From IMG/VR virus record IMGVR_UViG_3300025322_000545, positions 1-36,478 of that record: a stretch of DNA of 36,478 nt; one strand, 5' to 3'. The stretch comes from a virus. Each line of letters begins with the position of its first letter. Position 1 is the stretch's first letter. The notes beneath the pieces are model-generated. The model worked only from the letters and a program-made list of their open reading frames with translations, made no database searches and was not told where the DNA came from. This document shows positions 3,044 through 35,645 of the stretch, piece by piece. Made by a program: the position numbers and the translations under genes.

Positions 3044-3268
3044 TTATTTTTTGTTTGCAAGCTTCGTCTTCAAAAACTGTTCCCAGCTTATCGTATAACC
3101 AAAATCCCAGCTTTCAACTTCACGCTTTGCTTTTCTTATGCGTTTAATTAATTCTAATTCATCGTGAATAATTTTAATTACTTGTTTTTTATTTAACCAT
3201 CGCAAAGTCTTATGCCGTTCTAAATCTTCCTGCTGTAATCGGAATGCGGATTTGTTTGTCTGGCTCAT
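3044..3268 (-). CDS. small basic helical hypothetical protein (74 aa)
   Basis: A 74-residue, Lys/Arg-rich protein, mostly helical, with LNKKQVIKIIHDELEL and RIRKAKREVESWD. No signal peptide or membrane segment. It starts one base beyond the end of the lipoprotein gene. Basic helical proteins in phage early operons often bind nucleic acid or host proteins, but nothing here identifies a target. Family not recognised. Confidence 0.6.
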   Translation of the reverse strand: MSQTNKSAFRLQQEDLERHKTLRWLNKKQVIKIIHDELELIKRIRKAKREVESWDFGYTISWEQFLKTKLANKK

Positions 3269-3269
3269 A

Positions 3270-3728
3270 TTAATAAATATAATTAACGGAAATACTCATA
3301 TTACCCATGCTGTTCTTTTGTTCTTTGACTAAACTTCCCGCTTTGTATATCCGAACATATAGCGTATCATAATCCTTGTATGGATTTGATGAGCGAGGAA
3401 TGAAAGAAAAATTCGTGGATACCTGATAGGATGTGGGTATAGCCTGATTCCATTCATGATGATTATCTTTTATTTCTTCCGCTATTGCTGGATTGCCAGG
3501 AATATACCAAGAACAATAGATGCTATCATATTGTTGCCCGTATGTAGAATAAATAATATCGGTAGTAATTTTTAATCCACCCGGTACTGACATCCCTGTT
3601 TGTGCTGGCGGCGGAGACGTATCTTTCTTACATCCAGATACCCCGATTATGATGGCAACCATTGCAAGTATAACGAGCAACGGCATTACTACTTCAATGA
3701 AGATAATGAATAGGAATGTTTTTTTCAT
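3270..3728 (-). CDS. predicted surface lipoprotein (superinfection-exclusion candidate)
   Basis: A 152-residue protein with an unusually long hydrophobic N-terminus (residues ~4-31) ending in the lipobox GVSGC, cleavage before Cys33, followed by KKDT. A charged patch just after the Cys resembles the lipoprotein export signal that sends Bacteroidota lipoproteins to the cell surface. The mature part is beta-rich with several Tyr and Ser. Phage lipoproteins of this kind can block superinfecting phages or alter the host surface; this role is inferred. The ATG overlaps the stop of the preceding gene, and the gene lies in the early operon next to the HTH regulator. Confidence 0.7.
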   Translation of the reverse strand: MKKTFLFIIFIEVVMPLLVILAMVAIIIGVSGCKKDTSPPPAQTGMSVPGGLKITTDIIYSTYGQQYDSIYCSWYIPGNPAIAEEIKDNHHEWNQAIPTSYQVSTNFSFIPRSSNPYKDYDTLYVRIYKAGSLVKEQKNSMGNMSISVNYIY

Positions 3729-3958
3729 AGTGTCTTTAATTTATATAACGGTTCTATATGCGGATTTTCTGTCGGGCTTAAATGCTCATGCTTTTCAAAC
3801 CACAGGGCGATCAGCTCCCTACCGTCCTCATTATGTGCCTCATAAGTTAATACTGGCTTACGTAATGTTTCAAGTTGAATTACATTTTCGCAAGAGAAAA
3901 TACAATGTTTCAGCTTTATATAAGCCGCTGATCGCGGGGTGTTGGGGAGTGGTTTCAT
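3725..3958 (-). CDS. small hypothetical protein (77 aa)
   Basis: A 77-residue protein. It is translationally coupled at both ends: its ATG overlaps the stop of the HTH gene and its stop overlaps the lipoprotein start. Visible features are a Cys pair (HCIFSC, around residues 18-23) and an acidic central block AHNEDGRELIALWFEKHEHL. No signal peptide. I do not recognise the family. The tight coupling says that it is made together with the regulator and lipoprotein. Confidence 0.55.
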   Translation of the reverse strand: MKPLPNTPRSAAYIKLKHCIFSCENVIQLETLRKPVLTYEAHNEDGRELIALWFEKHEHLSPTENPHIEPLYKLKTL

Positions 3959-4125
3959 AGTCCTAATATTTTTCTGATTTTATTCTTTTCCACTTCTGTC
4001 AACGAATCAGAATTTAGTTTGCGCCAGAAGGTAATGCGATTCATTTGCATTTTATCCATTAGCCAGTTTTTTTTTCGCCCTGAATTTTCAAGCAGCTTAC
4101 CGAGTTCAATTCTAAATTTTGTCAT
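3955..4125 (-). CDS. small HTH (XRE/Cro-like) DNA-binding protein (56 aa)
   Basis: Translation of 4125..3955 gives MTKFRIELGKLLENSGR, then KKNWLMDKMQMNRITFWRKL and EVEKNKIRKILGL. The pattern of a short helix, a turn, 'WLMDKM' (helix 2), 'NRITFWRKL' (recognition helix) and a final helix fits small Cro/XRE-type helix-turn-helix proteins of Bacteroidota. It is the second gene after the operator-containing promoter and so probably controls it. The stop overlaps the next ATG (ATGA). The fold is inferred from pattern only; the gene itself is well supported by coupling and composition. Confidence 0.65.
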   Translation of the reverse strand: MTKFRIELGKLLENSGRKKNWLMDKMQMNRITFWRKLNSDSLTEVEKNKIRKILGL

Positions 4126-4136
4126 AATAATTATAG

Positions 4137-4361
4137 TTATTTTATTAGTTGAATTAAATCATAATTGAAATTTTCAAGATTCTTTTTGCCCCAATTAATA
4201 GCTTTAATATAAGCAATTTTGCCCTTAAATATTCTTTCAATAATAGACTGACTTTTATTTTCAAAATAAATTATTTTATAATTACTCGATGGCAAATATT
4301 CTTTTAAATCCTTGGATCCAGTTATGTTCTGAAAAGCCCTGTGTGCGTGTGTTATTTTCAT
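4137..4361 (-). CDS. first gene of the early operon, hypothetical (74 aa)
   Basis: A 74-residue basic protein beginning MKITHAHRAFQNITG, with NYKIIYFENKSQSIIERIF and a C-terminal NYDLIQLIK. It starts ~25 bases after the TACATTTG promoter element and is followed closely by the HTH gene, so it is likely the leading gene of the early transcript. Base composition is very AT-rich. No family recognised. It might be a regulator or an early host-takeover protein; there is no direct evidence. Confidence 0.55.
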   Translation of the reverse strand: MKITHAHRAFQNITGSKDLKEYLPSSNYKIIYFENKSQSIIERIFKGKIAYIKAINWGKKNLENFNYDLIQLIK

Positions 4362-4383
4362 AGTGATTTGTTGTTTATAAGTA

Positions 4384-4391
4384 CAAATGTA
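4384..4391 (-). promoter_or_regulatory. Bacteroidota-type -7 promoter element (TACATTTG)
   Basis: On the minus strand TACATTTG fits the Bacteroidota -7 consensus TAnnTTTG exactly and lies 22 bases before the ATG at 4361. No clear -33 TTTG box is seen at the usual spacing; the upstream bases are instead occupied by the operator-like repeat 4390-4414, which overlaps this element by two bases. This arrangement fits repression by occlusion. Confidence 0.5.
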
Positions 4392-4414
4392 TGAATCATT
4401 TTTGTTTCATGGCT
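4390..4414. promoter_or_regulatory. operator-like repeat, proximal copy (25 bp)
   Basis: A 25-base sequence identical to 4465-4489. It contains a dyad, ATGAA and TTCAT arms with ten bases between, as expected for a dimeric HTH repressor site. It overlaps the -7 element at 4384-4391. The HTH gene at 3955-4125 is the obvious candidate binder. Confidence 0.6.
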
Positions 4415-4464
4415 ATGTTTATTTAACTATTTTTTAGCTGATAACGCAACTGCCTGACTATCAA

Positions 4465-4489
4465 TATGAATCATTTTTGTTTCATGGCT
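4465..4489. promoter_or_regulatory. operator-like repeat, distal copy (25 bp)
   Basis: Exact second copy of the 25-base dyad at 4390-4414, 75 bases away (start to start) and in the same orientation. That is roughly seven helical turns, so two bound dimers would face the same side and could cooperate. It lies between the late-operon terminator and the early promoter. Confidence 0.6.
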
Positions 4490-4490
4490 G

Positions 4491-4556
4491 TAAAACAGAA
4501 GCCACTGCCTTACGGGGCAATGTTTATCGAGGCGGTTAATCCCGCTGTTGCTTCTG
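4491..4556 (-). terminator. terminator-like three-way structure after the GH16 gene
   Basis: On the minus strand CAGAAGC (4556-4550) pairs with GCTTCTG (4502-4496), directly followed by TTTTA, as in an intrinsic terminator. The long loop holds two further small stems, GCGG/CCGC (4532-4535 with 4542-4545) and TGCC/GGCA (4506-4509 with 4516-4519). It would close the late operon before the early promoter. The large loop makes it unusual for a terminator; another RNA or cruciform role is possible. Confidence 0.45.
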
Positions 4557-4562
4557 ATTATG

Positions 4563-5198
4563 TCAACTTAATCGCAATACGAGCTTGTTGGAATCAATAC
4601 TTGCGCCTGACTCAAATAGCTGCGTTTCGCCAAGAATAAATGTAGGTAAATACCATCGGTTTTTATCTATCGAATGGAAGCTGTCTCTCCACTTATGGAT
4701 AAAGCCTTTATTGCTGTATTCAAAATATTCTACGTATTCATAAGAAGCAATCTGGGGAAGAAGCCCCTTATCGAAATCTCCAGCCCAATTACTTCCGCCT
4801 TGCCATATGTTCATCATAAGTTTCATTCTTTGGGATAGCTTAATTTGAGATGTCCTTATTACTATATCATTCACCTTCCAGGTAATTTTATCAGGAATCC
4901 ATTCTAAGGTTAGCTTCCACCACGCATCTGAACTGCGTCTATTCAATACGGTATGTCGGACGTTTACGTTTTTATCAGTAATGCCATTTACTGTTTGAAT
5001 AAGATTCGTATCAACGGAATTTGTGTGCCTACCTAAAAATTCAAAGTCTACTTCACTCCATTTCTTTTGAAAACCTATTGTGTCATCAAAAAGAAAGAAA
5101 CTGTTCACTATGCCAGAGCCGTATGCCGGCTTCATGAGGCATTCAAAGCGTCCGTAAAGGAAAGATTCCCTTGTATTAATGTTGCTTCCAGAGGTCAT
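4563..5198 (-). CDS. circularly permuted GH16 beta-glucanase-like hydrolase
   Basis: A 211-residue glycoside hydrolase family 16 enzyme (beta-jelly-roll; lichenase/laminarinase type). The signature ExDxxE-like site is WSEVDFEFLG: Glu49 nucleophile, Asp51, Glu53 acid/base. The order is changed. The protein starts at the strand before YGRFECLMK, runs through the catalytic motif, WKLTLEWIPD and MMNIWQGG, and ends with DSFHSIDKNRW and NKLVLRLS, which in ordinary GH16 enzymes form the N-terminus. The same permutation is known in the Fibrobacter succinogenes 1,3-1,4-beta-glucanase. There is no signal peptide, and it is the last gene of the lysis/late region. It probably acts on host capsule or matrix glucan when cells lyse, or as a virion depolymerase; substrate unknown. 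Confidence 0.82.
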   Translation of the reverse strand: MTSGSNINTRESFLYGRFECLMKPAYGSGIVNSFFLFDDTIGFQKKWSEVDFEFLGRHTNSVDTNLIQTVNGITDKNVNVRHTVLNRRSSDAWWKLTLEWIPDKITWKVNDIVIRTSQIKLSQRMKLMMNIWQGGSNWAGDFDKGLLPQIASYEYVEYFEYSNKGFIHKWRDSFHSIDKNRWYLPTFILGETQLFESGASIDSNKLVLRLS

Positions 5199-5214
5199 AA
5201 AATCTAAAGGTGGG

Positions 5215-5565
5215 CTATTTCTGAAGAGTATCTATCAATACGCTTGTAGTATCAATGACCGTAACGATAGGCTCATTTGGAATAACCGAATTACTTCCCT
5301 GGAGTAAATTGAGCGCATCATCAATAGTGATTATCTTCGTGCCAAAAGCATAAAGTATAATTCCCCAGCAAAGAACCTGAATAGCAATCGAAGTCCAATT
5401 ATGTGGCTTCGGCTTGTCGGCAGGCGTTTTGAAATTTTTAAATATTTCAATTACCGTAGCTGCCGGAGGGCAGAATGTTTTTATTGTTCCTCTGAATAAG
5501 GGATTAATTATCTTTTGGAAAATTGGTCTCTGGAACAATTTTACTTTTGGCGTTTCTTGTGTCAT
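5215..5565 (-). CDS. single-span membrane protein, lysis region (116 aa)
   Basis: A 116-residue protein with a basic N-terminal ~55 residues (cytoplasmic by the positive-inside rule), one hydrophobic segment near residues 60-80 (SIAIQVLCWGIILYAFG) and a short C-terminal tail that would be periplasmic. The ATG overlaps the stop of the preceding two-span protein gene. Its place in a run of small membrane proteins suggests a lysis accessory or holin-related role. No family recognised with certainty. Confidence 0.6.
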   Translation of the reverse strand: MTQETPKVKLFQRPIFQKIINPLFRGTIKTFCPPAATVIEIFKNFKTPADKPKPHNWTSIAIQVLCWGIILYAFGTKIITIDDALNLLQGSNSVIPNEPIVTVIDTTSVLIDTLQK

Positions 5566-5816
5566 GGTGTAGGTTGTTGAGTTGGTGTTTCTGTTGTCAT
5601 TTTATCAATAGTCTCCTGCTTTGCTTTGCTGCCGGAACTCGAGCCAAAATAATACGAGAACACAGTAGTATAAGAGCCTACGATAACTCCGATGAATCCA
5701 GCGACTAAAGCCGAAGGCTCTGCGGACTTCATTAATAACACTGCTAATATAGCGAGCGGAGCAATTACGCCGAGCATGGCGAGTATGGCTATGATAACGT
5801 CTTTTTTGTCTTTCAT
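5562..5816 (-). CDS. holin-like two-span membrane protein (84 aa)
   Basis: An 84-residue protein with two clear hydrophobic segments, residues ~8-29 (IIAILAMLGVIAPLAILAVL) and ~37-57 (ALVAGFIGVIVGSYTTVF), a short charged N-terminus and a polar C-terminus rich in Ser, Thr and Gln. This size and topology fit a class II holin that would open the inner membrane at lysis. It is coupled to the next membrane gene by ATGA. Sequence alone does not prove holin activity. Confidence 0.6.
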   Translation of the reverse strand: MKDKKDVIIAILAMLGVIAPLAILAVLLMKSAEPSALVAGFIGVIVGSYTTVFSYYFGSSSGSKAKQETIDKMTTETPTQQPTP

Positions 5817-5817: not shown

Positions 5818-6102
5818 TTATCTGATTTTTAGTTTCTTTTTTATTCTGTCAATAGCATCGAAATCCATCTGCAAATATATACTATCCTTTGCGTTTCTTT
5901 GTTCTAATTTTTTTATACGCTCAATGTAATGCGCCCCAAGTATTGAATCTTTTATGCCTTTTGATTTTAGGTACCTTACTGTTCCAGGAAGATACCATAG
6001 TTCCTTTCCTGTGTTTGCCATAAACGTCCCGCCGACCGCTATCATGGACATTATTAATCCCATTATTACCTTGTCCTTTATGGTGTCCCAAAGTTTTCTC
6101 AT
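5818..6102 (-). CDS. N-anchored membrane protein, inner-membrane-spanin-like topology (94 aa)
   Basis: A 94-residue protein with an N-terminal hydrophobic segment (residues ~13-30, IMGLIMSMIAVGGTF) followed by a charged helical tail (HYIERIKKLEQRN, FDAIDRIKKKLKI). One N-terminal anchor plus a periplasmic coiled-coil is the layout of inner-membrane spanins, which join inner and outer membrane during lysis. It overlaps the putative lysin gene by four bases. The spanin role is inferred from topology and place; no homology seen. Confidence 0.5.
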   Translation of the reverse strand: MRKLWDTIKDKVIMGLIMSMIAVGGTFMANTGKELWYLPGTVRYLKSKGIKDSILGAHYIERIKKLEQRNAKDSIYLQMDFDAIDRIKKKLKIR

Positions 6103-6557
6103 TTCTTTATTTCGTCAAATATCTCGATAGTAACCACGCTTCCCTTTTCAATTTCATTTGCTACTACAGGATAGATTCTTTCATAAGCTGCCCCTGAACC
6201 TGCTACCGAGCCCCTGGTAGTTATGTTCTGAGTAGCTGAATCGCCTACCAGTAAGCACCCCGCGCTGTCCAGGTCGCTGTTTCCTAAGTGAATGAGTATA
6301 TACTCGAATCCAGGAACATCTTGAAGCCAGAGCATTCCCTTATGAATTTTGGGGTACTTGGCTGAGTACTTCTCATGGAATCCACCTTCCTTCCTTAGTG
6401 ATATTTTATAGTTGCCTGAAGGTATGCGGGTTTCTCCCTTCACTTTTACTTCCCGGTATTCATCCTCAATGATGAAGCAAACAAATCTACCGTCAATATG
6501 TAAAAGCCCTAAGGTGCTTTCATTTCCTGAACTGAATCTGTATAGTGATAGTTTCAT
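6099..6557 (-). CDS. DUF5675-like protein, putative endolysin or peptidoglycan-active enzyme
   Basis: A 152-residue protein that resembles the DUF5675 family common in Bacteroidota phages: STLGLLHIDGRFVCFIIEDE (residues 15-34), VKGETRIPSGNYKI, the block YILIHLGNSDLDSAGCLLVG (~86-105) with a conserved His91 and Cys101, and a C-terminal YPVVANEIEKG. The His and the following SxGC block recall the active site of L,D-transpeptidase-like enzymes, so peptidoglycan cleavage or modification is plausible but unproven. It sits inside the lysis region, upstream of holin-like genes. No signal peptide, so it would need a holin for release. Confidence 0.7.
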   Translation of the reverse strand: MKLSLYRFSSGNESTLGLLHIDGRFVCFIIEDEYREVKVKGETRIPSGNYKISLRKEGGFHEKYSAKYPKIHKGMLWLQDVPGFEYILIHLGNSDLDSAGCLLVGDSATQNITTRGSVAGSGAAYERIYPVVANEIEKGSVVTIEIFDEIKK

Positions 6558-6775
6558 TTTCCTTTGATTATTATTTTTAGTTCCTCAATAGCTTTCCTCC
6601 AGTTGATTATAATGATAATTGAAACAGAAGCAAGAGAAGCTGCCCTGAATATCCACGTATAAACATCGATTGCTGTTGCTTCGGCTGCGGCATTAGCGAT
6701 CCATCCGAATATTAAAAGCACCACGCTGATAATCGGACTACCTTCGCTCGTTCTGTTGTCTACGTCCGGCATCAT
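6554..6775 (-). CDS. holin-like membrane protein (73 aa)
   Basis: Two hydrophobic segments, SPIISVVLLIFGWIANAAAE and VYTWIFRAASLASVSIIIII, joined by a short acidic loop, with a basic Lys-rich C-terminus. I prefer the ATG at 6775 because a start at 6817 would overlap the preceding gene by 35 bases. The stop overlaps the start of the DUF5675-like gene, as in many holin-endolysin pairs. This is the best holin candidate by position; the other two-span protein (5562-5816) could be a second holin or an antiholin. Confidence 0.6.
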   Translation of the reverse strand: MMPDVDNRTSEGSPIISVVLLIFGWIANAAAEATAIDVYTWIFRAASLASVSIIIIINWRKAIEELKIIIKGK

Positions 6776-6782
6776 AAGTTTT

Positions 6783-7064
6783 TTATTTATATCCAAGTTC
6801 GGCGCAAACCGCTTCATATTTTGCCAACATTGCTTTTTTGTCGGCGAGTATTTTTTCAGAAGAAGAAATTTGGTTTTCCAGAATTTTAATCTCTGAATTT
6901 AATTTTTCTTTTTTTGCCACTACCTGCGCCCCTGTTAATGTGGTTTTCTTTTCAGCAACTGCTGGCGTTACTTCAATAGCTTTTCCGCTTTCCGCTTTTA
7001 TGGTTTGGGAAAATGAAGTCAGCGCAAAGGCTGTGATTGCAAGGGTAAGGAATAGTTTTTTCAT
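6783..7064 (-). CDS. exported periplasmic coiled-coil protein (93 aa)
   Basis: A typical Bacteroidota signal peptide, MKKLFLTLAITAFALTSFSQ, with predicted cleavage near residue 20, is followed by ~70 residues dominated by a coiled coil (KKEKLNSEIKILENQISSSEKILADKKAM). No lipobox. An exported coiled-coil protein next to holin and lysin genes could act as the periplasmic or outer partner in envelope disruption, similar in concept to a spanin subunit, though it lacks a membrane anchor. Function inferred only from position and export signal. Confidence 0.6.
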   Translation of the reverse strand: MKKLFLTLAITAFALTSFSQTIKAESGKAIEVTPAVAEKKTTLTGAQVVAKKEKLNSEIKILENQISSSEKILADKKAMLAKYEAVCAELGYK

Positions 7065-7078: not shown

Positions 7079-7192
7079 TTATTGTGGAGTTCTTATATCA
7101 TAGAAGCAGTTAATTATTAAAAGCAATAACCCTATGGGTACGATAAATGGAAGCAATAAAACAACTGCAAATATTTTAAAAAAAGGTTTCAT
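7079..7192 (-). CDS. 37-aa single-span membrane peptide
   Basis: Translation of 7192..7079 gives a very hydrophobic peptide: MKPFFKIFAVVLLLPFIVP, then IGLLLLIINCFYDIRTPQ. The ATG overlaps the stop of the tail-fibre gene (ATGA), and the next gene begins 15 bases after its stop, so it fits tightly in the operon. A short membrane peptide at the head of the lysis region could be a holin, pinholin or regulator. Nothing more can be said from sequence. Confidence 0.5.
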   Translation of the reverse strand: MKPFFKIFAVVLLLPFIVPIGLLLLIINCFYDIRTPQ

Positions 7193-8685
7193 TTTATAAG
7201 ATATGTAAATGATACTCCAAATTCGCCTAAACTCAAGCCTGATGAAAGATATTTTAAATTAACGGTATCATTTGCAACATTAGCAAGAATATTTCCAGAT
7301 TGTCGCACGCTTCCACAAGTAAGGCTACCACCACATTCACCACTTCCTGCAAAATTAGACGGTATCGGTATAGACATTTGTAATTGTGTATCGGTAGCCG
7401 ATACGGTAGCATCTATGTCTATTCTGCCCGAAACAAGTACTACATTTCCAACCCTTATCCATTGCATTATATAAGTAACAGTATCGGTAACATTAGCATC
7501 TATTGTAACTACTGGTTGATAAGTACCGGACGCGATATATTGGTTAGTCGTTCCTGTCGGTAACTCTGAATTATTGTGAAGCTTAGTTCCAAAAATATTT
7601 CCATCGTCCCTAACTGCAAAGTTTATTGTACTGTCCGAACTTTCAGCCCTGAAAGAAACGGTTGTGCTTGCCGTGCCTACACCGTGCAAATGAAGATATG
7701 CCTTTGGAAAATGCGGATAATCCATATTAATGCCTACAGGAAAAGCAGCTTGAGCACCGCCCAAAAATAAAGCAGGTGTTTGAAATATTGTTTCATCTGA
7801 ATTTACCAGTTTAACGCCGTCAATAAAACCTAATCCAGGAGCATCAGCAGCGACTAACCTCAAAGCCGATCCATCTATGCCGGATGCGGCACTACCAATT
7901 CTTAAATCTTTATTGCCGGGTGAAAGTATATCAGCAGAACCATTATCGCTTTTGCCCTCGAACGTATGAAAATATGCAACATATCTAATTCCTGTCGTCG
8001 AAGCAAGGGTGTCAACTTCAATAGTATTTGCAACATTTGTTCCGCCAAAATATAATTTTGTACCTACGCCATCCGGGTTATCAAACGTCACATCTCCGCT
8101 TCCAACATGAAGTTTTACTGTTGGATTCGTTATTCCTACCCCCACATCGCCCCCGCTTTCTACTGTTAATTTTGTCGTGCCTCCTGTTTCAACTCCTAAA
8201 TCAAAAGCATCATTCAGTCCTATGATTGCATTCCCGCCAAATGAATTACCTCCGTTTAAATACCCCGAAATAAATGGTGCGCCTCCGCTACCATCACTCA
8301 CTATCTGCCATGCCGTTGCAGTAGAGTTATATTTTAACCCATACCATACGCTCGACCTTATCGCCCCGCTTGTTAATGCTCCCCCATTCAGTGTTATATC
8401 TTTAGCTGCCTGACTGTTTACTTTTAATGTAGAAGCCGCAGTATTTGAATTGGTAAATTTCGCCCAAATAAGCTGCTTATCATAAGGTGTTGTGTTTGTG
8501 CTTGCTGAAATAGTTACCGAATAGCTATTCGTCCCAGATGCTGTCCCTCCAAAAGCATCAATTTGCTGTTCGGTTGTTTGAGAAAATGAAAGGAAAAATG
8601 AGAAAAGGAAAAGGATGGTGAATAGGTGCTTCATTGGTTTATTTTTTACAAAAATAGTTAATTTATCTGAAAGTAAGTTACTCAT
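7189..8685 (-). CDS. tail-fibre-like protein with signal-peptide-like N-terminus
   Basis: A large beta-rich protein (498 aa from the coupled ATG at 8685, or 481 aa from the ATG at 8634). From the second ATG the N-terminus MKHLFTILFLFSFFLSFSQ is a textbook Bacteroidota signal peptide, unexpected for a virion fibre. Repetitive Gly/Ser/Thr-rich segments follow (LNGGNSFGGNAIIGL, VGVGITNPTVKLHVG), typical of trimeric phage fibres. Residues ~45-130 resemble part of the fibre encoded at 9033-9821. No intramolecular chaperone domain is visible at the C-terminus. Likely a receptor-binding or adhesin-like protein; whether it is exported is open. Confidence 0.65.
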   Translation of the reverse strand: MSNLLSDKLTIFVKNKPMKHLFTILFLFSFFLSFSQTTEQQIDAFGGTASGTNSYSVTISASTNTTPYDKQLIWAKFTNSNTAASTLKVNSQAAKDITLNGGALTSGAIRSSVWYGLKYNSTATAWQIVSDGSGGAPFISGYLNGGNSFGGNAIIGLNDAFDLGVETGGTTKLTVESGGDVGVGITNPTVKLHVGSGDVTFDNPDGVGTKLYFGGTNVANTIEVDTLASTTGIRYVAYFHTFEGKSDNGSADILSPGNKDLRIGSAASGIDGSALRLVAADAPGLGFIDGVKLVNSDETIFQTPALFLGGAQAAFPVGINMDYPHFPKAYLHLHGVGTASTTVSFRAESSDSTINFAVRDDGNIFGTKLHNNSELPTGTTNQYIASGTYQPVVTIDANVTDTVTYIMQWIRVGNVVLVSGRIDIDATVSATDTQLQMSIPIPSNFAGSGECGGSLTCGSVRQSGNILANVANDTVNLKYLSSGLSLGEFGVSFTYLIK

Positions 8686-9032: not shown

Positions 9033-9821
9033 TTATAAAGGTATTATTATTAATCCGCTCACTCCTTTTAAACCCGAATTTGTAAATGGCGTTCCATCGC
9101 TGAGTTTATAAAAATTAACGACAGTCGCCGATCCGCCAATCTCTGCTAATGCACCAAGTGAATACACACCAGCATCTTGAGATCGTATAAGCAAGTCAAC
9201 ATAATTAGAACCAGCCCTTGAAGTATAGGGAATGGAAAAATTAGTAGTGGCTGAATTGCTTGTTCCATATAAATAAAATTGAACGAATAAAACAGATCCT
9301 GTTTTTTTATATTGTATGAACTTTGATGTAAAGGAGCTCCATCCCACTACAGTTGAGATAGAAGTGTAATCAGTCCACTCCACGTTATCAGACAAATCCG
9401 TTGTCGCATTTATATATGGTTGAATCTGAAAGTTTGTTCCATCATATATTAAATGATAAATCCGGTTGGCAATAATATCCCCGGCAACCAAAGCGGTAGA
9501 TACTCTTTTCACAATTGATTTTGCGCCAAGAGAATTTACATTGATAGTTGCGGCACCAGTATTGGTAATACCGAACTTCACTCGTATTCTCATGCCCGCA
9601 AAATACCCTAATATAGGAGGCATTTTTAATGACGCTACATAAGTATCCGTCCCTGTTGTTGTGGTAAACTCATATAAAATATCTGTATATGCAAGAGAGT
9701 TCCATGCCGTAACTCCGTCGCCTTCTTTCACGACCCCTGTATCTACTTCAATGCCAAAATCGCCCTTTAGTAATATAGGATTACTTGAAGTAAAATAGAT
9801 TGATGTGTGTTCGTATATCAT
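9033..9821 (-). CDS. tail fibre with Mtd_N-like amino-terminal domain
   Basis: I place the start at the ATG at 9821, which overlaps the stop of the upstream gene. The first ~45 residues, with FTSSNPILLKGDFGIEVDTG and VKEGDGVTAWNSLAY, match the N-terminal domain first described in the Bordetella phage major tropism determinant (Mtd_N), which attaches receptor-binding proteins to the tail. A beta-rich middle and a C-terminal globular beta domain follow (FIQYKKTGSVLFVQFYLYG). No reverse transcriptase or template repeat is seen nearby, so diversification by a DGR is not supported. Probably receptor binding. Confidence 0.75.
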   Translation of the reverse strand: MIYEHTSIYFTSSNPILLKGDFGIEVDTGVVKEGDGVTAWNSLAYTDILYEFTTTTGTDTYVASLKMPPILGYFAGMRIRVKFGITNTGAATINVNSLGAKSIVKRVSTALVAGDIIANRIYHLIYDGTNFQIQPYINATTDLSDNVEWTDYTSISTVVGWSSFTSKFIQYKKTGSVLFVQFYLYGTSNSATTNFSIPYTSRAGSNYVDLLIRSQDAGVYSLGALAEIGGSATVVNFYKLSDGTPFTNSGLKGVSGLIIIPL

Positions 9822-10891
9822 TTTATTACTTCGCAGCAAATGGATTTAATTATACTCTGTACACCGCGTTTGAAAAATACTTTTACTTTACTTAATCTCT
9901 GTCCTTTATTGTCCAGATATTCAGGCTCAAATGATCCATCCTTTACCACAACCATTCTCTTTAGATTAAAATCGGAATTGTGAATATTATAATCACTTAC
10001 CCTTAATTCGTCTGCCATCATTCCGTAAATAGCAAATCTCTCATGCAGATATTTAGGTAAATAGTTTGACAAATATTCGTACCTCTGAATGGCTTCGTCC
10101 CTTACTCGTTCTATCTTGCCGTGTTTTGGTTTGCCCCACTCCTGCATGACTTCTCTGTATTCCGATACTTTTTCATAGCCGAACCATCCTTTTACGCGAA
10201 CAGAATCATATAGCCACATTTTACATAGGTCATAAACAACATAATCGCTTCTTTTATCTCCAATCTTTCCGGTTAATCTGTTTTCCCATTTTACTGTCCC
10301 TTTTGCACGTTGGCAATCCCAAAGTAACGCATGGAAACAAGGAGTGGCTAAACAACTGATAATTAATCCAAATGTACTCGTTACCTTTACTCTATAAATA
10401 CCATTCCCCTCAAATTGAATTACCTTTCCCCAATTTATTGAGAAATAATAATATGATTTATGCCCTGCTATTGTACCAAATGAATTTGTTGTAATAAAAT
10501 TTATGGGTGCTGTTCCTACCGTTGTCCATACACCAGAAATAAGCTCTTCGAGATTTACTGTTACGGTTGGTTGGTCGTTTGGATTTGCTGACCATAACTG
10601 ATAATCCAAAAGCCATCCATTCACATCATTCTCATAAGTCGGGGTATTTATTCCCTGTCCGCTTTGCAGATTTCCAAATACAGGATTTTTCCACTCGTCT
10701 TCTGTTCTGCATTCTGTCGATGTGCAAGGAGACAAAGGAATGAAACCAGTAACCTGTACAGGGTGTAAATTTACAAAGTAAACTCCAGTTCCTCCGGATA
10801 CAGAACGCACAGGCAATATTGGTAATGGAGGCGCAAAGCCTTTTAAGACTGCCGCGCTTCCTCCCGCTGTGGATATTGTCATTACCGCCAT
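9818..10891 (-). CDS. putative tail or baseplate protein (357 aa)
   Basis: The likely start is the ATG at 10891, which shares a base with the stop of the previous gene (TAATG); an upstream ATG would overlap it by 46 bases. The N-terminal half is beta-rich with Pro/Gly turns; the C-terminal half is more charged, with WENRLTGKIGDKRSDYVVYD, RDEAIQRYEYLSNYLPKYL and a basic end. It lies between a small virion protein and the Mtd_N-type fibre. No family recognised; structural role inferred from place. Confidence 0.55.
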   Translation of the reverse strand: MAVMTISTAGGSAAVLKGFAPPLPILPVRSVSGGTGVYFVNLHPVQVTGFIPLSPCTSTECRTEDEWKNPVFGNLQSGQGINTPTYENDVNGWLLDYQLWSANPNDQPTVTVNLEELISGVWTTVGTAPINFITTNSFGTIAGHKSYYYFSINWGKVIQFEGNGIYRVKVTSTFGLIISCLATPCFHALLWDCQRAKGTVKWENRLTGKIGDKRSDYVVYDLCKMWLYDSVRVKGWFGYEKVSEYREVMQEWGKPKHGKIERVRDEAIQRYEYLSNYLPKYLHERFAIYGMMADELRVSDYNIHNSDFNLKRMVVVKDGSFEPEYLDNKGQRLSKVKVFFKRGVQSIIKSICCEVIK

Positions 10892-20151: not shown

Positions 20152-21081
20152 TTAATCAATAACCAATATATTTTTTAGATATTCACCTGTTGCTTTATGG
20201 CTGTGCTTTTCTACTACCCATTTTCTTGTTTCTGCCTGTAATTGCTGTATCTCTTCTTTGGGCATCATGATCAATTTGTGTAGGTTGTCCTTAAATTCGC
20301 GCTCTGTGTTGCACATTACAAAAGGATAGTCGCATCCATAGGCTTTATTATATACATTAAGGTAAATATTCTGCGTCATCACAATCTTGCCTAATGCTGC
20401 TGCCTCAAATGCCGTGACTCCATAACATCCATAGGGGTTTCCATGCTGCGTAGGAGCGAACATTTCTATGTAAATATCGCATTCTAAAATCCTTTTCATC
20501 TGATCGGCATGGCTTACCTTAATATCCGTGAATAGAAATTTCATTCTGTGATTATGAGGCGGCAGTAAATTAATCAATTGAAGTATTTTTGCGCTCCCCT
20601 TTGTTTCTGCTTTGCTCGGATAGTGGGCTACTTTATAAGGAAGATCAATTACTTTCAATTCAGGATGGATTTTATCCGTATCAACGGCAGTAGCAACATA
20701 CTTCCATTTATTCATATTATATTCTAAGTGCATGAACTCACATTGATCGGTAAATATTTCAGCATCCTTGAATATTTCGTTCATCTCCTTTGGGTTGCGC
20801 CTGTAAATTGTACCTGTATGAAAGGCAATAACTCTTTTTCTTTCAGATAGTCCGTGAATTATTTTCCACCATTCAAGGTTAGAATGAAAGTATAGTATGA
20901 TATGTGCTGCCCTTACCTTTTCAAGGGCGGTTTTATTGTCTACTACCCGAGCTTCGTTATTGTAGCTAAATGGATGCTTGACGATCTTTATACATTCACA
21001 TTCCATGCCAGCAGCAAGAAGAGACTTATATGTATTGTACATATAATTTGCATAATCGTCGTAGCAAATAAGGAGCATCAT
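20152..21081 (-). CDS. glycosyltransferase, GT-B (GT4-like)
   Basis: A 309-residue protein with two Rossmann-like halves. N-terminal features include LLICYDDYANYM and RVIAFHTGTIYRR; the C-terminal half has CDIYIEMFAP (~201-210) and the GT4-type acceptor/donor block YGVTAFEAAALGKIVMTQ with Glu226. These enzymes move a sugar from a nucleotide donor, often retaining. No signal or membrane segment, so it acts in the cytoplasm. The start overlaps the methyltransferase stop. The neighbours suggest a joint sugar-modification pathway inserted in virion genes; the acceptor is unknown. Confidence 0.75.
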   Translation of the reverse strand: MMLLICYDDYANYMYNTYKSLLAAGMECECIKIVKHPFSYNNEARVVDNKTALEKVRAAHIILYFHSNLEWWKIIHGLSERKRVIAFHTGTIYRRNPKEMNEIFKDAEIFTDQCEFMHLEYNMNKWKYVATAVDTDKIHPELKVIDLPYKVAHYPSKAETKGSAKILQLINLLPPHNHRMKFLFTDIKVSHADQMKRILECDIYIEMFAPTQHGNPYGCYGVTAFEAAALGKIVMTQNIYLNVYNKAYGCDYPFVMCNTEREFKDNLHKLIMMPKEEIQQLQAETRKWVVEKHSHKATGEYLKNILVID

Positions 21082-21599
21082 CTTAGAAATTCTATCAGCA
21101 TGATTTTAGGATGGAGATATTCAATGTATCCAATCTTAAATGGATTCATTAATTCGGCGAGTTCCTCTTTTTTTATTTCAATCGTATGGTATTTGTCCGG
21201 AGGAATGTTTACGCCTGTTAGTATTACAATATTATTCGTACATACTCTTTTCATCTGCTCGACCGCTTTAGGCAAATCGTAAAGATTATCGAGCATAGCA
21301 AAGGCGTAAAGAGTTTCGAATGTATTGTCCGGGAAATCACATTCCTCAATATTCATTTTAATTACTTCATCGCTTACCGGAAATGGATCAATACCCGTGT
21401 ATTCCGTTTCTTGTGGCAGGCAGGACTTGATCGTCATTGATCCGCACCCTACATCTAAAACTGTTTTGCCTACGTAGCATTTATTTATATGCCCCTTGTA
21501 ATCATCTACGTGTTTGAATTGACTTGTAATGGCTCCGGCTTTTCTTCGCTCCAGAAGATTATTCATTCTTTCAAGCCACAAGTTTTGCGATACTTTCAT
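21078..21599 (-). CDS. SAM-dependent class I methyltransferase
   Basis: A 173-residue protein with motif I VLDVGCGSM (residues ~48-56), the acidic strand-2 end YTGIDPFP and a later PDNTFETLYAFAMLDNLYD block, the usual layout of class I SAM methyltransferases. It overlaps the GT2 gene by 29 bases (a later ATG at 21566 would avoid this) and is coupled to the GT4-like gene. A sugar or small-molecule O-methyltransferase is more likely than a DNA enzyme, as no DPPY/PCQ-type motif is seen. Confidence 0.75.
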   Translation of the reverse strand: MKVSQNLWLERMNNLLERRKAGAITSQFKHVDDYKGHINKCYVGKTVLDVGCGSMTIKSCLPQETEYTGIDPFPVSDEVIKMNIEECDFPDNTFETLYAFAMLDNLYDLPKAVEQMKRVCTNNIVILTGVNIPPDKYHTIEIKKEELAELMNPFKIGYIEYLHPKIMLIEFLR

Positions 21600-22320
21600 A
21601 TAGTGGTTTTTTAGGACGGTTGACGAAGTTATTATAAATACTTCTTTGATACGTTATTCCTCTGACATTCTTTGTGCTGTATCTTCCTCGCTTATTGTAG
21701 ATATAAATCGGCTGTTTAATAACTCCTATCCTATCCTTGCCGCACATTTCAAGACATGAGAACATTAAATTGCTTTCCGTGGTTGCTCTTACCCATTCAC
21801 CGTCGACCTTGAAATCGTCCTCTGTTAATTGATCGAATAGAAATCTTTTGAATGTATTAGGGGCTGTTGATCGGTATCGAACAGAGCGATAAGCTCTTGT
21901 TTCATGTTCCTCGTCAGTAAAATCAAGAAACCCTTTTGGCAGCATGATACCCGCATTGTCTTTCCAGTTGCCGTAAGTCATCCATTTGCCTGCGTCGTAT
22001 TCCTTCTTTATTTCACAAAGCGCATTTATGTCTAAGTAGTCATCCATTCCGAGCAATAATATAACGTCCTCGGGGTCTTGTGAATATTTCTTGATAGCAT
22101 CCCATCTTCTTTTGGCTGCGCCCTGATTGTCCGAATGTAATTCTAAAGTAAATCGGGGATCGGCAACCTTTTTAGACAGAAACATTTTTGTTCTATCGTC
22201 AGAACCGTCGTCGATAAATATCGCTCTCAGGTGTTTGTATCTTTGAAATTGTACGGATTGAATTAAAGTATGAATGTACATTTGGCAATTAACACCAGAC
22301 GAAACAATTAGGAAATTCAT
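21571..22320 (-). CDS. glycosyltransferase family 2 (GT-A)
   Basis: I place the start at the ATG at 22320 (MNFLIVSSGVN), where GT2 enzymes usually begin; a longer frame to 22383 adds a hydrophobic leader better explained by the overlapping 48-aa ORF. Key motifs are AIFIDDGSDDRT (residues ~33-44, nucleotide binding), SDNQGAAKRRW (~63-73) and LLGMDDYLD (~89-97, the DxD-like metal site). The ~249 residues make a compact GT-A domain without membrane anchor. It is adjacent to a methyltransferase and two further glycosyltransferases. Acceptor unknown. Confidence 0.8.
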   Translation of the reverse strand: MNFLIVSSGVNCQMYIHTLIQSVQFQRYKHLRAIFIDDGSDDRTKMFLSKKVADPRFTLELHSDNQGAAKRRWDAIKKYSQDPEDVILLLGMDDYLDINALCEIKKEYDAGKWMTYGNWKDNAGIMLPKGFLDFTDEEHETRAYRSVRYRSTAPNTFKRFLFDQLTEDDFKVDGEWVRATTESNLMFSCLEMCGKDRIGVIKQPIYIYNKRGRYSTKNVRGITYQRSIYNNFVNRPKKPLYESIAKLVA

Positions 22321-22466
22321 CAGAAGAGGATTGAGAAAATAAATATCCAGAAACAAACACAAGTCAAGAACATAAATCCCCATACCAGCCTGAACGCTAT
22401 CCTAAAGCGTTTGTCTTGACTGTTTGAAAAACGATTACTAAGGTCTATGTTATGTAATACATTCAT
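22320..22466 (-). CDS. 48-aa membrane peptide overlapping GT2 start
   Basis: Translation of 22466..22320 gives MNVLHNIDLSNRFSNSQDKR, then FRIAFRLVWGFMFLTCVCFW and IFIFSILF: a polar head and one hydrophobic C-terminal segment. Its ATG lies inside the end of the preceding gene (17-base overlap) and its TGA shares a base with the GT2 start (TGATG), a strong translational coupling. It could anchor or assist the GT2 enzyme at the membrane. Small size makes the call moderate. Confidence 0.45.
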   Translation of the reverse strand: MNVLHNIDLSNRFSNSQDKRFRIAFRLVWGFMFLTCVCFWIFIFSILF

Positions 22467-23166
22467 CGGGGCAGTCATCTGTTATTTTATAGACTACTAA
22501 GGACAGATTCAATTCGCACCCTGCTAACTTATCGGCAAACAGGCTTTTCTCCATTCCTTTATTCGATATGTAAACACCAAATTTGGCATAGTTGATAACA
22601 TCGTATTCCCAATCAATAAGATTAAAACGCCCCGGCATCAACCGAAGGTACTCGATAAAATTCTCCATCAACCTTCGCATAGGTTCTATGGCATTATGGT
22701 AGGCATCGTCTACGAGCCATTGTTCGTGATTTGCTTGAGTAAGAAAGAAGAGCCGGAAGTTTATTTGTCTCTCTCGGGTGTCTTCCGAATCATCAAAAAA
22801 CCTGTCTGTGAAATTTTCAAGGAACCATATCATCGGAGTTTTGTTTGAAGCATTTGACTCCTGTACCAATTGGACATTTGTTTCTATTGGTGTGCCGTGA
22901 AAGAAAAAAGGCGGATAAAGAAAGAACGACAAAACGACTATTGCTGCCGATCCTCTTACAATTATTGTATCCGGAGCCAGCACGTCAACTATTGTATAAG
23001 TATTTCCATCAATCGTTAATTTGAATCCGGGCTGTGCATAAAATACATCGCAAACCGTAAGTGTATGTACTTCGCCTGAAGTGCTTATTGAAACAATTTG
23101 CACAACAAAAGACATACTGGATACTACTTCGCCGATAACATCAATAGAAGATTGTTTGTAAATCAT
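22450..23166 (-). CDS. putative head-tail connector or tail protein (238 aa)
   Basis: A 238-residue protein. A beta-rich start (SFVVQIVSISTSGEVHTLTV, GFKLTIDGNTYTIVDVLAPD) is followed by a mixed region with PMIWFLENFTDRF, INFRLFFLTQANHEQW and MRRLMENFIEYLRLMPGRFN. It is located between a small aromatic protein gene and the sugar-modification genes. The position after the connector gene suggests head-tail joining or tail termination. No family recognised with certainty. Confidence 0.5.
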   Translation of the reverse strand: MIYKQSSIDVIGEVVSSMSFVVQIVSISTSGEVHTLTVCDVFYAQPGFKLTIDGNTYTIVDVLAPDTIIVRGSAAIVVLSFFLYPPFFFHGTPIETNVQLVQESNASNKTPMIWFLENFTDRFFDDSEDTRERQINFRLFFLTQANHEQWLVDDAYHNAIEPMRRLMENFIEYLRLMPGRFNLIDWEYDVINYAKFGVYISNKGMEKSLFADKLAGCELNLSLVVYKITDDCPDECIT

Positions 23167-28726: not shown

Positions 28727-28915
28727 TCAATTGAAAAATTGTTTTCCAAATGCAATAATTCTCTTGGCTGGATTTTTGGAGCATGGATCACAAAGATATA
28801 CACCGCAAAGATTACAATACTTTACTTGCTTCTTCTTGTAATCTTTATCTACAAGCACACAGCAACGACATAGTCTGTACTTGTAGGCGTTCTTTTGACA
28901 CGAAGGACAACTCAT
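28727..28915 (-). CDS. small Zn-ribbon protein beside the large terminase (62 aa)
   Basis: A 62-residue protein with four Cys pairs: CPSC, CRCC, CNLC and CDPC, so it can bind two zinc ions. The C-terminus is basic and aromatic (KRIIAFGKQFFN). The ATG overlaps the terminase stop (ATGA). Such Zn-knuckle proteins beside terL occur in several phages and may assist packaging or the head; the role is not established. Confidence 0.6.
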   Translation of the reverse strand: MSCPSCQKNAYKYRLCRCCVLVDKDYKKKQVKYCNLCGVYLCDPCSKNPAKRIIAFGKQFFN

Positions 28916-30180
28916 GGCTGGAATAAATGAGGAAGAAATCCCTGAATGAAGTTTGCAAGTCCCGATAAACTATCCGGAGCATCGTCATGCTTGCTCGATC
29001 CATCCTTCATGTAAGCAAGTAACTGCCGCATGAATAAATCATAGTCGCTGCCGGGAACAATTTCGGATTCATCAAGGAAGTAACAATATTCTTTTATGAA
29101 TCCATACTGCAAAAGTATTCGTGTGTGTTTATTGTTTGTATTGCTCACTGACAAAATCTTCTCGACAGGAACTAATTGCCGCAGCATCTTGATAAAAACA
29201 CTGCCCTGATTGTTTGCCTCTACACGAACATACTCTGGGTTGTTTTTCTTTATCATTCCAGAAACCATTGGGAGCGTTACGTCTACATTTGCTCGCGTGA
29301 AAAGAATATCTGTAATGAATATCTTCTTTGAAAATATATCCGCCATTGGCATGGAAAAGTAGTCGTCTCCTTCGTCCGCTATGTCCGCATATCCTAAAGT
29401 AGCTTCTTTGCCTTGCGGCTTATAATTCTTTAAAGAAAACCGCTTCAATTCTTTTTTATCAAACAAAACACCCTCCAGCTTTACATCCCAGTTCCCCTTT
29501 ACAAATACTTCATATTCGTGTTCTGGCATATTCTTTTGTAAGCTGTCCAGATATTCTTTAGATATATATGGGTTGTCCGTAATTAGTGCATTTATAAACG
29601 CCCATCCTGGCTTTAATCTTCCCTCTCTCCATTTGTCGTAAAAGGTTTCCTTCACCCATCCATTAGAAGGATTGCAAGTACCGATTATTTTTATAGGGAC
29701 TCTCCCCGCTTCAGCCCAGCTACCAGATCGCTCTATTAATTTATAAAATGTTTGTGGTTGCATTTCGTTTATTTCATCCATTCCCGCTCCGTTTATTTCG
29801 AGTCCTCGAAATCTATTCAAGTCTTTGTCTTCATTAAAACTTTCTCCCATAAATATTATTTGCGATCCGTTATTAAAAGTTACCGTATTGGTTTCCCTAT
29901 TCCAATCTTTCACATATTGTAAATACCCTTTGTCGAGAAAATTAGTTTGAAATGTTGGCAGCAAATTTCGTTTCAATGTCGGCATATTCTCCCGAACTAT
30001 TACCCATCTGGATTTGGGATATTGAAAACAAAATTTTAGAAATCTACCAAGAAGAAAAATACTTTTGCCTCCACGAATACCGCCGCCGTAAATAAGTATT
30101 GTATTATTTTGAAGTAGCCGGTTCGCTTCCTGTTGCTTCAGGGTTAACCGTATCGTCTGGCTTTGCTGGGGCGGTGTCAT
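28912..30180 (-). CDS. terL: terminase large subunit (ATPase/nuclease)
   Basis: A 422-residue packaging motor protein, starting at the ATG at 30180 (a TTG precedes it). N-terminal ATPase: Walker A GGGIRGGKS (residues ~32-40), Walker B GAGMDE (~131-136) and motif III GTCNPS (~167-172). C-terminal RNase-H-like nuclease: LGYADIAD with catalytic Asp (~266), VRVEANNQG with Glu (~321) and HDDAPDS with Asp (~400-403). It cuts concatemers and drives DNA into the prohead. It overlaps the small terminase gene by 77 bases in another frame. Confidence 0.9.
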   Translation of the reverse strand: MTPPQQSQTIRLTLKQQEANRLLQNNTILIYGGGIRGGKSIFLLGRFLKFCFQYPKSRWVIVRENMPTLKRNLLPTFQTNFLDKGYLQYVKDWNRETNTVTFNNGSQIIFMGESFNEDKDLNRFRGLEINGAGMDEINEMQPQTFYKLIERSGSWAEAGRVPIKIIGTCNPSNGWVKETFYDKWREGRLKPGWAFINALITDNPYISKEYLDSLQKNMPEHEYEVFVKGNWDVKLEGVLFDKKELKRFSLKNYKPQGKEATLGYADIADEGDDYFSMPMADIFSKKIFITDILFTRANVDVTLPMVSGMIKKNNPEYVRVEANNQGSVFIKMLRQLVPVEKILSVSNTNNKHTRILLQYGFIKEYCYFLDESEIVPGSDYDLFMRQLLAYMKDGSSKHDDAPDSLSGLANFIQGFLPHLFQP

Positions 30181-30511
30181 CAATGATGAGTGGTAAATTA
30201 ACTACATTCTGATTTATTGTTTGTACAGGCAATCCATCTACTCGGTTCATAATTCTTTCGGCTGATTTGCTATCGGGATCAAGTTTGGCGCGAAGCGTCA
30301 TTTTAGCCATGATTATTTCTCTATTAGTTGGGGGATTTTTTGTATCTGAAAATATTTTTTTTATTTCCTCATCTTCCATGTCTTTTATGCTTGCCTCCAT
30401 ATCAAGCAACGCTTCAAGAACTGCTTTAAAAGATTTCCCTTTGGGTCTCCCATTCGGGTTCCCGGATTCACCTGGACTAAATTGAGTTTCTTTGTTTGGA
30501 AATTCTCCCAT
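30104..30511 (-). CDS. DUF5681-like protein, putative terminase small subunit
   Basis: I place the start at the ATG at 30511 (MGEFPNKETQFSPGESGNPNG), since the longer frame begins at TTG. Residues ~13-26 (SGNPNGRPKGKSFKA) form the GNP.GRP.G motif of DUF5681. The rest is helical (DMEASIKDMEDEEIKKIF, EIIMAKMTLRAKLDPDSKSAER) with an acidic, Pro-rich tail. Proteins of this type lie directly before terL in many phages and probably act as DNA-recognition small terminase. Its 3' end overlaps the terL start. Confidence 0.7.
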   Translation of the reverse strand: MGEFPNKETQFSPGESGNPNGRPKGKSFKAVLEALLDMEASIKDMEDEEIKKIFSDTKNPPTNREIIMAKMTLRAKLDPDSKSAERIMNRVDGLPVQTINQNVVNLPLIIDDTAPAKPDDTVNPEATGSEPATSK

Positions 30512-33294: not shown

Positions 33295-34821
33295 TTATTT
33301 TATTATATAATTAGAAAACTTGCTATCCTGTATCTTTTGAATCTGAGAAAATACCCATCCATTTTTATAACCGAATAGCTTTGCATATTCGGTTATAGCA
33401 TCTATTCCTTTTGATCTGACAATTCTCCAACAGTATGTACTTTTGTAGCGTTTTGATTTTTGAATGTCTGCAATTTCCTCTAACGACAATTCACTAACTC
33501 TTTTCCCCTTCAATGCAATTGGAGTTCCAGTATCCACCTCACACATAACGCCCTCCCGAAGTTCTGTTGTGGCGATCTCGAACGTATGCCCACAAAATTC
33601 ACAAATTCTGACCGAAGCAAATAGCATTGCCGAACAATTTGGGCAAGTCTTAACAGGGGCGGCTTGTTGCGTCTTTCTTTTTTTAGGCGGCTCGAGCGAC
33701 CATGTTCTGGGTTGATTCCATAGCCCAAGCCTGGTATGGTTGTCTCCAAAATCACAGACGATAAAATGTGATTTGCCTGTGTGCTTCCGCGAACCTCTTC
33801 CTTGCATTTGAAGCCAAAGGGGTAGGGAAGTAGTTGCTCGGTCAACAAAAACAAACATGATAGGATCGTGAGAATATCCGGTTGTGAGAATCCCGCAGTT
33901 AATCATAACGCCATCTTCCGAAGATTCATATTCCCGAATATTATAATCACGTTCTGATTCAGTCATTTTACTATGGCAAAGAAAAGTATTCACTCCATCT
34001 TTCATAAATGCCTCATAGGTTTTAATTGTATGTTCTACGTTCACGCAGAACACAATTCCTTTCAATCCTTTTACGAGCTTGAAATATTCGTCTAATACGC
34101 CCTTATACCTATTTGCTTTATTATATATTTTAAATAGTTCATTAGTATCAAAATCATCACCCTTCTTTTTTACCTTATCGAATCCATCCGCGTCCTTCAT
34201 CATATATGGTTTGCATGGAGTTAAATATCCCTGCTGCAATAATTCAGGGATGCCGATATTCTGAACAATGTCTGTGTAAAGTTTTGAAATGTGTTTGCCT
34301 TGTGGAGTAGCCGTGAAAGTAATTACAAAACTCGATGAGAAGTGTTCAATTATCTTTGTGAAATTATTGAAATGCCCTTCATCGCAAATGATTAAGTCTG
34401 GCATAAGAATAGGCGGATTGTGATCGGTTAAATCATATCCATTATAGTTAACCCCATTGTAAAATTTTTCTTGCCCTGTTGAATCTATCTTGCTCTTGTG
34501 AATCCTATTCCAAAGTGTCTTTTCCATACACAGCATTACACGCCAATCTCCAATAGGCATAGATGAACCCGCATCCAATTCCGCGCAAGGTATTCCAGCA
34601 TTTCCAAGATGAGCCAAGGTTGATTTAAATAATTCTTTTCTGTGAGTTAGCAAGACAACACGCTTTCCTTTCTCGTAAGCCAAGCGTGTCATTTCTGCCA
34701 TTTCGAGAGACTTTCCTGAACCAGTAGGGGCGCACCGTATGATTCGTTTGTGTCCCTTCCTGAATGAATTAGGGATAAGGTCAAATACGGAGATTGATTG
34801 GTATGGGCGAAGCGAAATCAA
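33295..34821 (-). CDS. superfamily 2 DNA helicase with C-terminal Zn finger
   Basis: A 508-residue SF2 (DEAD/DEAH-like, UvrB/RecG-type core) helicase. Motif I APTGSGKS (31-38), motif II DEGH (147-150), motif III FTATP (169-173), motif VI QMQGRGSRKHTGK (338-350), and a zinc ribbon with CPNC (393-396) and CEFC (407-410). The start is a TTG overlapping the integrase stop (TTGA), because the conserved RPYQ at residues 5-8 needs a start here. It likely unwinds branched DNA in phage replication or recombination. Confidence 0.85.
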   Translation of the reverse strand: MISLRPYQSISVFDLIPNSFRKGHKRIIRCAPTGSGKSLEMAEMTRLAYEKGKRVVLLTHRKELFKSTLAHLGNAGIPCAELDAGSSMPIGDWRVMLCMEKTLWNRIHKSKIDSTGQEKFYNGVNYNGYDLTDHNPPILMPDLIICDEGHFNNFTKIIEHFSSSFVITFTATPQGKHISKLYTDIVQNIGIPELLQQGYLTPCKPYMMKDADGFDKVKKKGDDFDTNELFKIYNKANRYKGVLDEYFKLVKGLKGIVFCVNVEHTIKTYEAFMKDGVNTFLCHSKMTESERDYNIREYESSEDGVMINCGILTTGYSHDPIMFVFVDRATTSLPLWLQMQGRGSRKHTGKSHFIVCDFGDNHTRLGLWNQPRTWSLEPPKKRKTQQAAPVKTCPNCSAMLFASVRICEFCGHTFEIATTELREGVMCEVDTGTPIALKGKRVSELSLEEIADIQKSKRYKSTYCWRIVRSKGIDAITEYAKLFGYKNGWVFSQIQKIQDSKFSNYIIK

Positions 34822-35645
34822 AGATGAATGGAATTTATAGGACTTTGAATTTTTGAAATAATATTATGAGAAATATGAGTATATAGTTCAGTGGTCTTTA
34901 CATTACTATGTCCGGCAATTCTTTTTATAAGTAGAATATCTGTTCCCATCTCAACCATATGAGTGAATGTACAATGTCTTATGAGATGAGTGTAAACCCT
35001 TTTAGATAACCCGGCTGATCTTGCAAGTTGTTTTATTACCTCGCCAACTGATCGAGCCGAATATTGTAAATCATTCTGCCCATTAAACACATACTCAATG
35101 CTTCGGTATTGTTGCCAATATTTAGTCAGCAGTGGAATAAGCGAATCACTCAAGCCTACCTGCCTATCCTTCTGTCCCTTCGCCTGGATGATATTTATAA
35201 TCATCCGGCTCCGGTCTATGTGTGACCACTTCAAGTTTATTAGTTCCGATACGCGAAGTCCGGCAGAATATAAGAGAGCAAGGATTGTTCGGTGCTTCAG
35301 ATTTTCGCAGACATCGAACATCTTTTGAATTTCATCTTGGGATAGGACGATGGGAAGTTTTTTATTTGGTTTACAATAAGGAATGTATTTAAATTTTTTC
35401 TTCTGCCCTATGCATATTTCATAGAACTTTTTTATTGCCGAATGATAACCACGCTGCGTATTGGGTTCATTAAACTTTCCCAAAAAAATACGTATATCAT
35501 CCTCATTGATATTTTTCGGGTAATCCTTCACTGATTGTCCGAAGAACTTTTTAAGACAGGATAAGTAATTATCTATGGTCTGAATACCGAAATTTCTACG
35601 TTTCATTTCCTGCTCGAAGTATGTTATATGTTCAGAAATATTCAT
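34818..35645 (-). CDS. tyrosine recombinase / phage integrase
   Basis: A 275-residue tyrosine recombinase of XerC/D-like layout. An N-terminal SAM-like core-binding domain (residues 1-90) is followed by the catalytic domain with Arg131 in SAGLRVSELINLKW, Lys156 in QAKGQKDRQ, HLIR (His220, Arg223), His246 in IAGHSN and the nucleophile Tyr255 in TTELYTHIS. All catalytic residues are present. It would integrate and excise the phage or resolve dimers. Alternatively it could act on the attC-like sites, although it lacks the extra helix that typifies integron integrases. Confidence 0.9.
   Translation of the reverse strand: MNISEHITYFEQEMKRRNFGIQTIDNYLSCLKKFFGQSVKDYPKNINEDDIRIFLGKFNEPNTQRGYHSAIKKFYEICIGQKKKFKYIPYCKPNKKLPIVLSQDEIQKMFDVCENLKHRTILALLYSAGLRVSELINLKWSHIDRSRMIINIIQAKGQKDRQVGLSDSLIPLLTKYWQQYRSIEYVFNGQNDLQYSARSVGEVIKQLARSAGLSKRVYTHLIRHCTFTHMVEMGTDILLIKRIAGHSNVKTTELYTHISHNIISKIQSPINSIHL

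Follow-up and report, generated by a model that had tools for sequence, protein, structure and literature searches.

A circularly permuted GH16 glycanase of licheninase type at the end of a lysis-like cassette in a phage with a likely Bacteroidota host

The window, i.e. the whole stretch of DNA analysed, is a 36,478-base IMG/VR virus record. Nearly all of its long open reading frames (ORFs) lie on the minus strand, and terminase, portal, major head protein, tape measure and tail-fibre-like genes as well as an integrase are present. No RNA families or tRNAs were detected in the window. The features on which this study draws are listed below.

4563..5198, minus strand: GH16 (licheninase-type) glycanase, circularly permuted, 211 aa, without signal peptide (PF00722, PDB sequence match, model TM 0.93)
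5031..5060, minus strand: WSEVDFEFLG, residues 47-56 of the GH16 protein, with the catalytic E-x-D-x-E (E49, D51, E53; alignment of relatives)
4563..4685, minus strand: residues 172-211 and stop, DSFHSIDKNRW...KLVLRLS, the strand segment found at the N-terminus of normal GH16 but at the C-terminus of this protein (profile, shuffle, structure)
5215..5565, minus strand: ORF of 116 aa, one predicted transmembrane segment (hydropathy), no family match
5562..5816, minus strand: holin-like ORF, 84 aa, two predicted transmembrane segments (hydropathy); PHROG 9990, function unknown
5818..6102, minus strand: ORF of 94 aa, one N-terminal transmembrane segment (hydropathy), spanin-like by architecture only
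6099..6557, minus strand: DUF5675 protein (PF18925, 4.2e-27), probable peptidoglycan-active endolysin
6554..6817, minus strand: holin-like ORF, 87 aa, two predicted transmembrane segments (hydropathy)
28912..30183, minus strand: terminase large subunit (PHROG 979/2); context of a Bacteroidota siphophage-like phage
34818..35645, minus strand: tyrosine integrase (PF00589, 3.6e-35); context of a temperate phage

Upstream of the GH16 gene and on the same strand, an ORF with two transmembrane segments is followed by the DUF5675 gene, a one-segment ORF, a second two-segment ORF and a further one-segment ORF, with 16 nt between the last of these and the start of the GH16 gene. Phage homologues of the DUF5675 protein are annotated as peptidoglycan hydrolase or L,D-carboxypeptidase/transpeptidase. 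We call the cassette lysis-like, as the identities of its genes are drawn from architecture and the DUF5675 match. These small membrane ORFs and the DUF5675 gene agree with an earlier note on this DNA, which had described holin-like neighbours in a phage late region.

A Bacteroidota host is likely, as the terminase is similar to the Flavobacterium phage 11b protein (32% over 62% of the query) and a protein of the tail region to counterparts in Flavobacterium phages, 1/32 among them (23% over 96%). Prophages with the same tail protein were not found in 396 Bacteroidota genomes, and a search through the 853-aa structural protein returned no lysis regions of related phages. A second contig of 9.1 kb repeats positions 21902-31036 at 99.9% identity; the GH16 gene lies outside its reach.

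Several other features of the window were recorded. A 25-base exact direct repeat (4390-4414 and 4465-4489, spacing 75) lies in intergenic DNA on the downstream side of the GH16 gene. In the long ORF of the tail-fibre region at 7189-8685 a signal-peptide-like stretch (MKHLFTILFLFSFFLSFSQ) comes after an internal Met, and the neighbouring ORF at 6783-7064 begins with such a stretch too, which is unusual among phage structural genes. Between the head and tail genes, 20152-24599 holds sugar-related genes, including a GT2-type glycosyltransferase (21571-22383), together with methyltransferase-like and glycosyltransferase-like ORFs; in one relative (L083) the DNA similarity continues across this region.

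The 211-aa ORF matches Glyco_hydro_16 (Pfam: PF00722) with an E-value of 2.8e-25 and 89.2 bits, against a cut-off of 22. The BglS equivalog (NCBIfam: NF047856) has a cut-off of 300, which the protein does not reach at 89.1 bits, and the ExoK family (NCBIfam: NF052392) matches its core only, with an E-value of 1.1e-14 and far below the cut-off. From stop to stop the frame has 222 codons. Only 11 of them precede the ATG and therefore a signal peptide cannot fit, as the earlier note had said of this minus-strand gene. Neither Pfam nor the structural model revealed an accessory or tail-attachment domain in the single 211-aa domain. By GC content (z 0.05), GC3 (z 0.86) and codon usage (z -0.89) the gene is like the other genes of the phage. 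AlphaFold predicted a beta-sandwich with a mean pLDDT of 93 and a pTM of 0.89 from an alignment of 28 rows.

The textbook natural permutant of this fold is the 1,3-1,4-beta-D-glucanase of Fibrobacter succinogenes (PDB: 1mve, 3h0o, 3axd), and the six best sequence matches of the phage protein among solved structures are all this enzyme. The best match is colinear without any rearrangement (phage residues 3-189 to residues 5-202, E-value 3e-22), and the alignment with the Bacillus enzymes of normal order is confined to phage residues 10-159. A profile of permuted order, from which the window was excluded, covers the phage protein as one full-length domain with 157 bits, whereas a profile of normal order splits it into pieces of 104 and 2 bits; after rotation of the sequence the latter gives a single full-length domain of 110 bits. 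Taken alone, the C-terminal 51 aa reach 19.5 bits with the permuted profile, compared to 8.0 for the best among 2000 shuffles. With a profile built from the N-terminal strands of normal-order enzymes alone the margin is thin, with 9.0 versus 8.9 for the best shuffle.

The structural comparison with Foldseek points the same way. The phage model aligns with the F. succinogenes structures at a TM-score of 0.92-0.93 over 219-225 columns, with the engineered permutants 1cpm and 1cpn at 0.82-0.83, and with normal lichenases at only about 0.63 over 157-179 columns, so that it fits permuted GH16 better than normal GH16. The strand that usually lies at the N-terminus is C-terminal here, and the new N-terminus is the strand before the YGxFE motif. 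Sequence comparison and model thus confirm that the phage protein is a natural permutant in the strand order of the F. succinogenes glucanase. In the earlier note a circular permutation had been proposed, with WSEVDFEFLG at residues 47-56 and the DSFHSIDKNRW...KLVLRLS segment (172-211) at the C-terminus. All of this was borne out: by profile and model the last 50 or so residues are paired and the catalytic residues are not displaced, and the permutation stands.

Compared to the F. succinogenes enzyme, the phage protein has the same permuted order, breakpoint and catalytic motif. The identity is 28-30%, and the Fibrobacter enzyme differs in being secreted with a signal peptide and in having a C-terminal extension. 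Permutants of Bacteroidota and Marinimicrobia (L003, L129-L157) share the order, the KxMMNxW motif and the catalytic site with the phage protein at 29-33% identity overall (up to 35% in the best tblastn segment), but they are mostly about 600 aa long with a leader-like N-terminus, whereas the phage form is a bare domain. The Bacillus GH16_21 licheninases (PDB: 1gbg) resemble it in the E-x-D-x-E motif and in a length of about 210 residues and possess the normal strand order. ExoK-type endo-beta-glycanases, which act on succinoglycan and are not known to be permuted, have a related lichenase-type fold.

Permuted GH16 is no peculiarity of Fibrobacter: Bacteroidota and Marinimicrobia have an established lineage of it. 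In a scan of genome contigs, colinear permuted homologues were found in Fibrobacter, Bacteroidales, Paludibacteraceae, Prevotellaceae, Marinimicrobia and Polyangiaceae, and also in Kiritimatiellae and Verrucomicrobia MAGs that are perhaps mis-binned. Profile searches of whole genomes detected the permuted form in 36 of 396 Bacteroidota genomes (9%, counted as full-length colinear rows) and in 45 of 149 genomes (30%) of the phylum of the Marinimicrobia genome. The single matches among 189 Myxococcota genomes and among 195 genomes of the phylum of the Verrucomicrobia MAG are in each case the centre genome itself. Relatives of normal order can be distinguished, as the permuted profile matches them as two swapped pieces; one Polyangiaceae genome encodes both strand orders. 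The frequency of permuted GH16 in Bacteroidota and Marinimicrobia (cellular loci L003, L129-L157 and L287-L296) seems to be under-reported. The Fibrobacter order named in the earlier note was correct, but to regard Fibrobacter as the natural permutant was too narrow.

The cellular permutants that we inspected have leader-like N-termini and are mostly longer, exported proteins with ORFs of about 600 aa, some of which, such as L003, combine the domain with a malectin domain and a type IX secretion tail. Near the cellular permutants, phage genes are limited to an integrase at four loci and a single DUF5675 gene. In a Paludibacteraceae locus (L035:612-5675) a small transmembrane ORF, DUF5675 and an integrase (3192-4529) directly precede a permuted GH16 lipoprotein gene (4812-5675), so that this cellular permutant has a prophage-like element as its neighbour. 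In two genomes (L284 and L285) a long protein that by eye appears glycosyltransferase-like in its N-terminal part has a C-terminal GH16 domain of normal order.

Two trees put the phage protein outside both cellular clades, at the end of a long branch (end length 2.1-2.3). The phylogeny that the earlier note had called for resolves these clades well, with support of 100/98 for the Bacteroidota/Marinimicrobia type and 99/98 for the Fibrobacter/rumen type, but does not place the phage protein. AU tests reject none of its placements, be it with all permutants (p 0.195), with the Bacteroidota/Marinimicrobia type (p 0.637), with the Fibrobacter/rumen type (p 0.677) or with normal order (p 0.385 and 0.421). 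That the permuted forms share their breakpoint speaks for a common origin rather than an independent permutation in the phage gene.

Among viruses the window stands by itself. One protein scan and two alignment scans of IMG/VR found no other viral permuted GH16, and two degenerate-codon scans, with stretches checked by motif and profile, gave no second viral copy among the matches listed; since scans of this kind sample conserved motifs, they could miss rare divergent copies, and records very close to the window may be omitted. A tblastn search with two queries against 50,697 phage records returned no second copy, and neither PHROGs nor the BFVD structures (best TM about 0.57) contained a viral permuted form. 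GH16 genes as such are reported from viruses as genes for carbohydrate degradation (PMC9636769) and from crAss-like phages (PMC12053484). In the GH16 subfamily survey a chlorella virus enzyme, closest to GH16_3, is the only characterised member named from a virus, and neither permutation nor Fibrobacter is mentioned (PMC6827312). Within the collections searched, the gene would be the first phage occurrence of permuted GH16. The idea that phages are a route by which the permuted form moves is therefore unsupported: no other viral copy was found in these searches, and permutants are frequent in cellular genomes.

The catalytic block is intact. E49, D51 and E53 correspond to E105, D107 and E109 of Bacillus 1gbg and are invariant across all aligned relatives; they lie in the block pointed out in the earlier note. 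The equivalents of Phe92 (F35), Trp103 (W47), Trp192 (W138), Asn121 (N65), Asn182 (N130) and Trp184 (W132) are also kept, and the enzyme is probably catalytic, judging from its residues. In Bacillus numbering, Glu63 is replaced by Asn6, Arg65 by Asn8 and Tyr24 by Ile188. The Glu63 equivalent is invariant in all 59 aligned cellular permutants and kept in the F. succinogenes enzyme; Tyr24 is missing from the aligned cellular permutants shown as well. Residues 24, 63 and 65 of the Bacillus lichenases line the donor subsites. Since these contacts are replaced, the substrate may differ from mixed-linkage glucan, which is perhaps not preferred by the phage enzyme, and a lowered activity is possible.

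Subfamily GH16_21 is described by a domain of about 210 residues, Phe92 at the -1 platform, Trp103 and Trp192, and by the aromatic substrate-binding residues Tyr24 and Tyr94 (PMC6827312). The phage protein agrees in size and platform (211 aa, F35, W47, W138) but has Ile188 and Phe37 at the last two positions, of which Phe37 is still aromatic. Tyr24 may define the Bacillus type alone. With Tyr24 absent here and from the aligned cellular permutants shown, we withhold the GH16_21 assignment.

Our preferred reading, to which we give slightly better than even chances, is that a phage whose host probably belongs to the Bacteroidota captured a permuted GH16 domain, without secretion signal or accessory domain, as a leaderless, single-domain, polysaccharide-cutting glycanase released at lysis. 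The captured domain would have been kept at the end of the lysis cassette. Its product would be made late and would stay in the cytoplasm until holin and endolysin break the cell; once freed, it could cut beta-linked glucan-containing polysaccharide of the host coat, the biofilm matrix or the surroundings, which may help the progeny to disperse. For a leaderless enzyme encoded at a lysis cassette, release at lysis is the simplest reading. ExoK cleaves rhizobial succinoglycan (PMC4916376), so that action on bacterial exopolysaccharide is known for the lichenase-type fold, and the donor-subsite changes suggest a substrate other than standard mixed-linkage glucan. More tentatively, and with rather low expectation, the protein could represent a class of phage depolymerases other than tail spikes: permuted lichenases with a remodelled donor subsite, leaderless and released at lysis, which cut a new type of host exopolysaccharide.

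A tail-packaged enzyme which clears polysaccharide ahead of adsorption would agree with the tail-fibre-like ORFs a few genes away (9033-9839, matching tail PHROGs), but the missing tail-attachment domain and the lysis-like cassette that separates the GH16 gene from the tail genes make this improbable. We likewise give little credence to an auxiliary metabolic gene (AMG) that boosts the use of plant or algal beta-glucan by the host during infection or lysogeny. Viral GH16 genes are reported as AMGs for carbohydrate degradation (PMC9636769) and from crAss-like phages (PMC12053484), and this phage carries an integrase; yet without a signal peptide extracellular glucan would be out of reach before lysis by the usual route, and the inspected cellular permutants have leader-like N-termini. 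The occurrence in a single viral record, the long branch and the lost subsite residues would fit a passenger or decaying host-derived gene with little function. We regard this as similarly doubtful, given the full-length open frame, the intact catalytic motif and structural core (pLDDT 93) and a composition resembling the rest of the phage.

Natural circular permutation in GH16 is taught mainly from one Fibrobacter enzyme. The permuted Bacteroidota/Marinimicrobia lineage can be compared with available relatives of normal order, and the phage gene offers a minimal natural permutant for work on protein folding. Under our preferred reading of release at lysis, the enzyme is also a candidate lysis-time depolymerase against biofilm polysaccharides of Bacteroidota.
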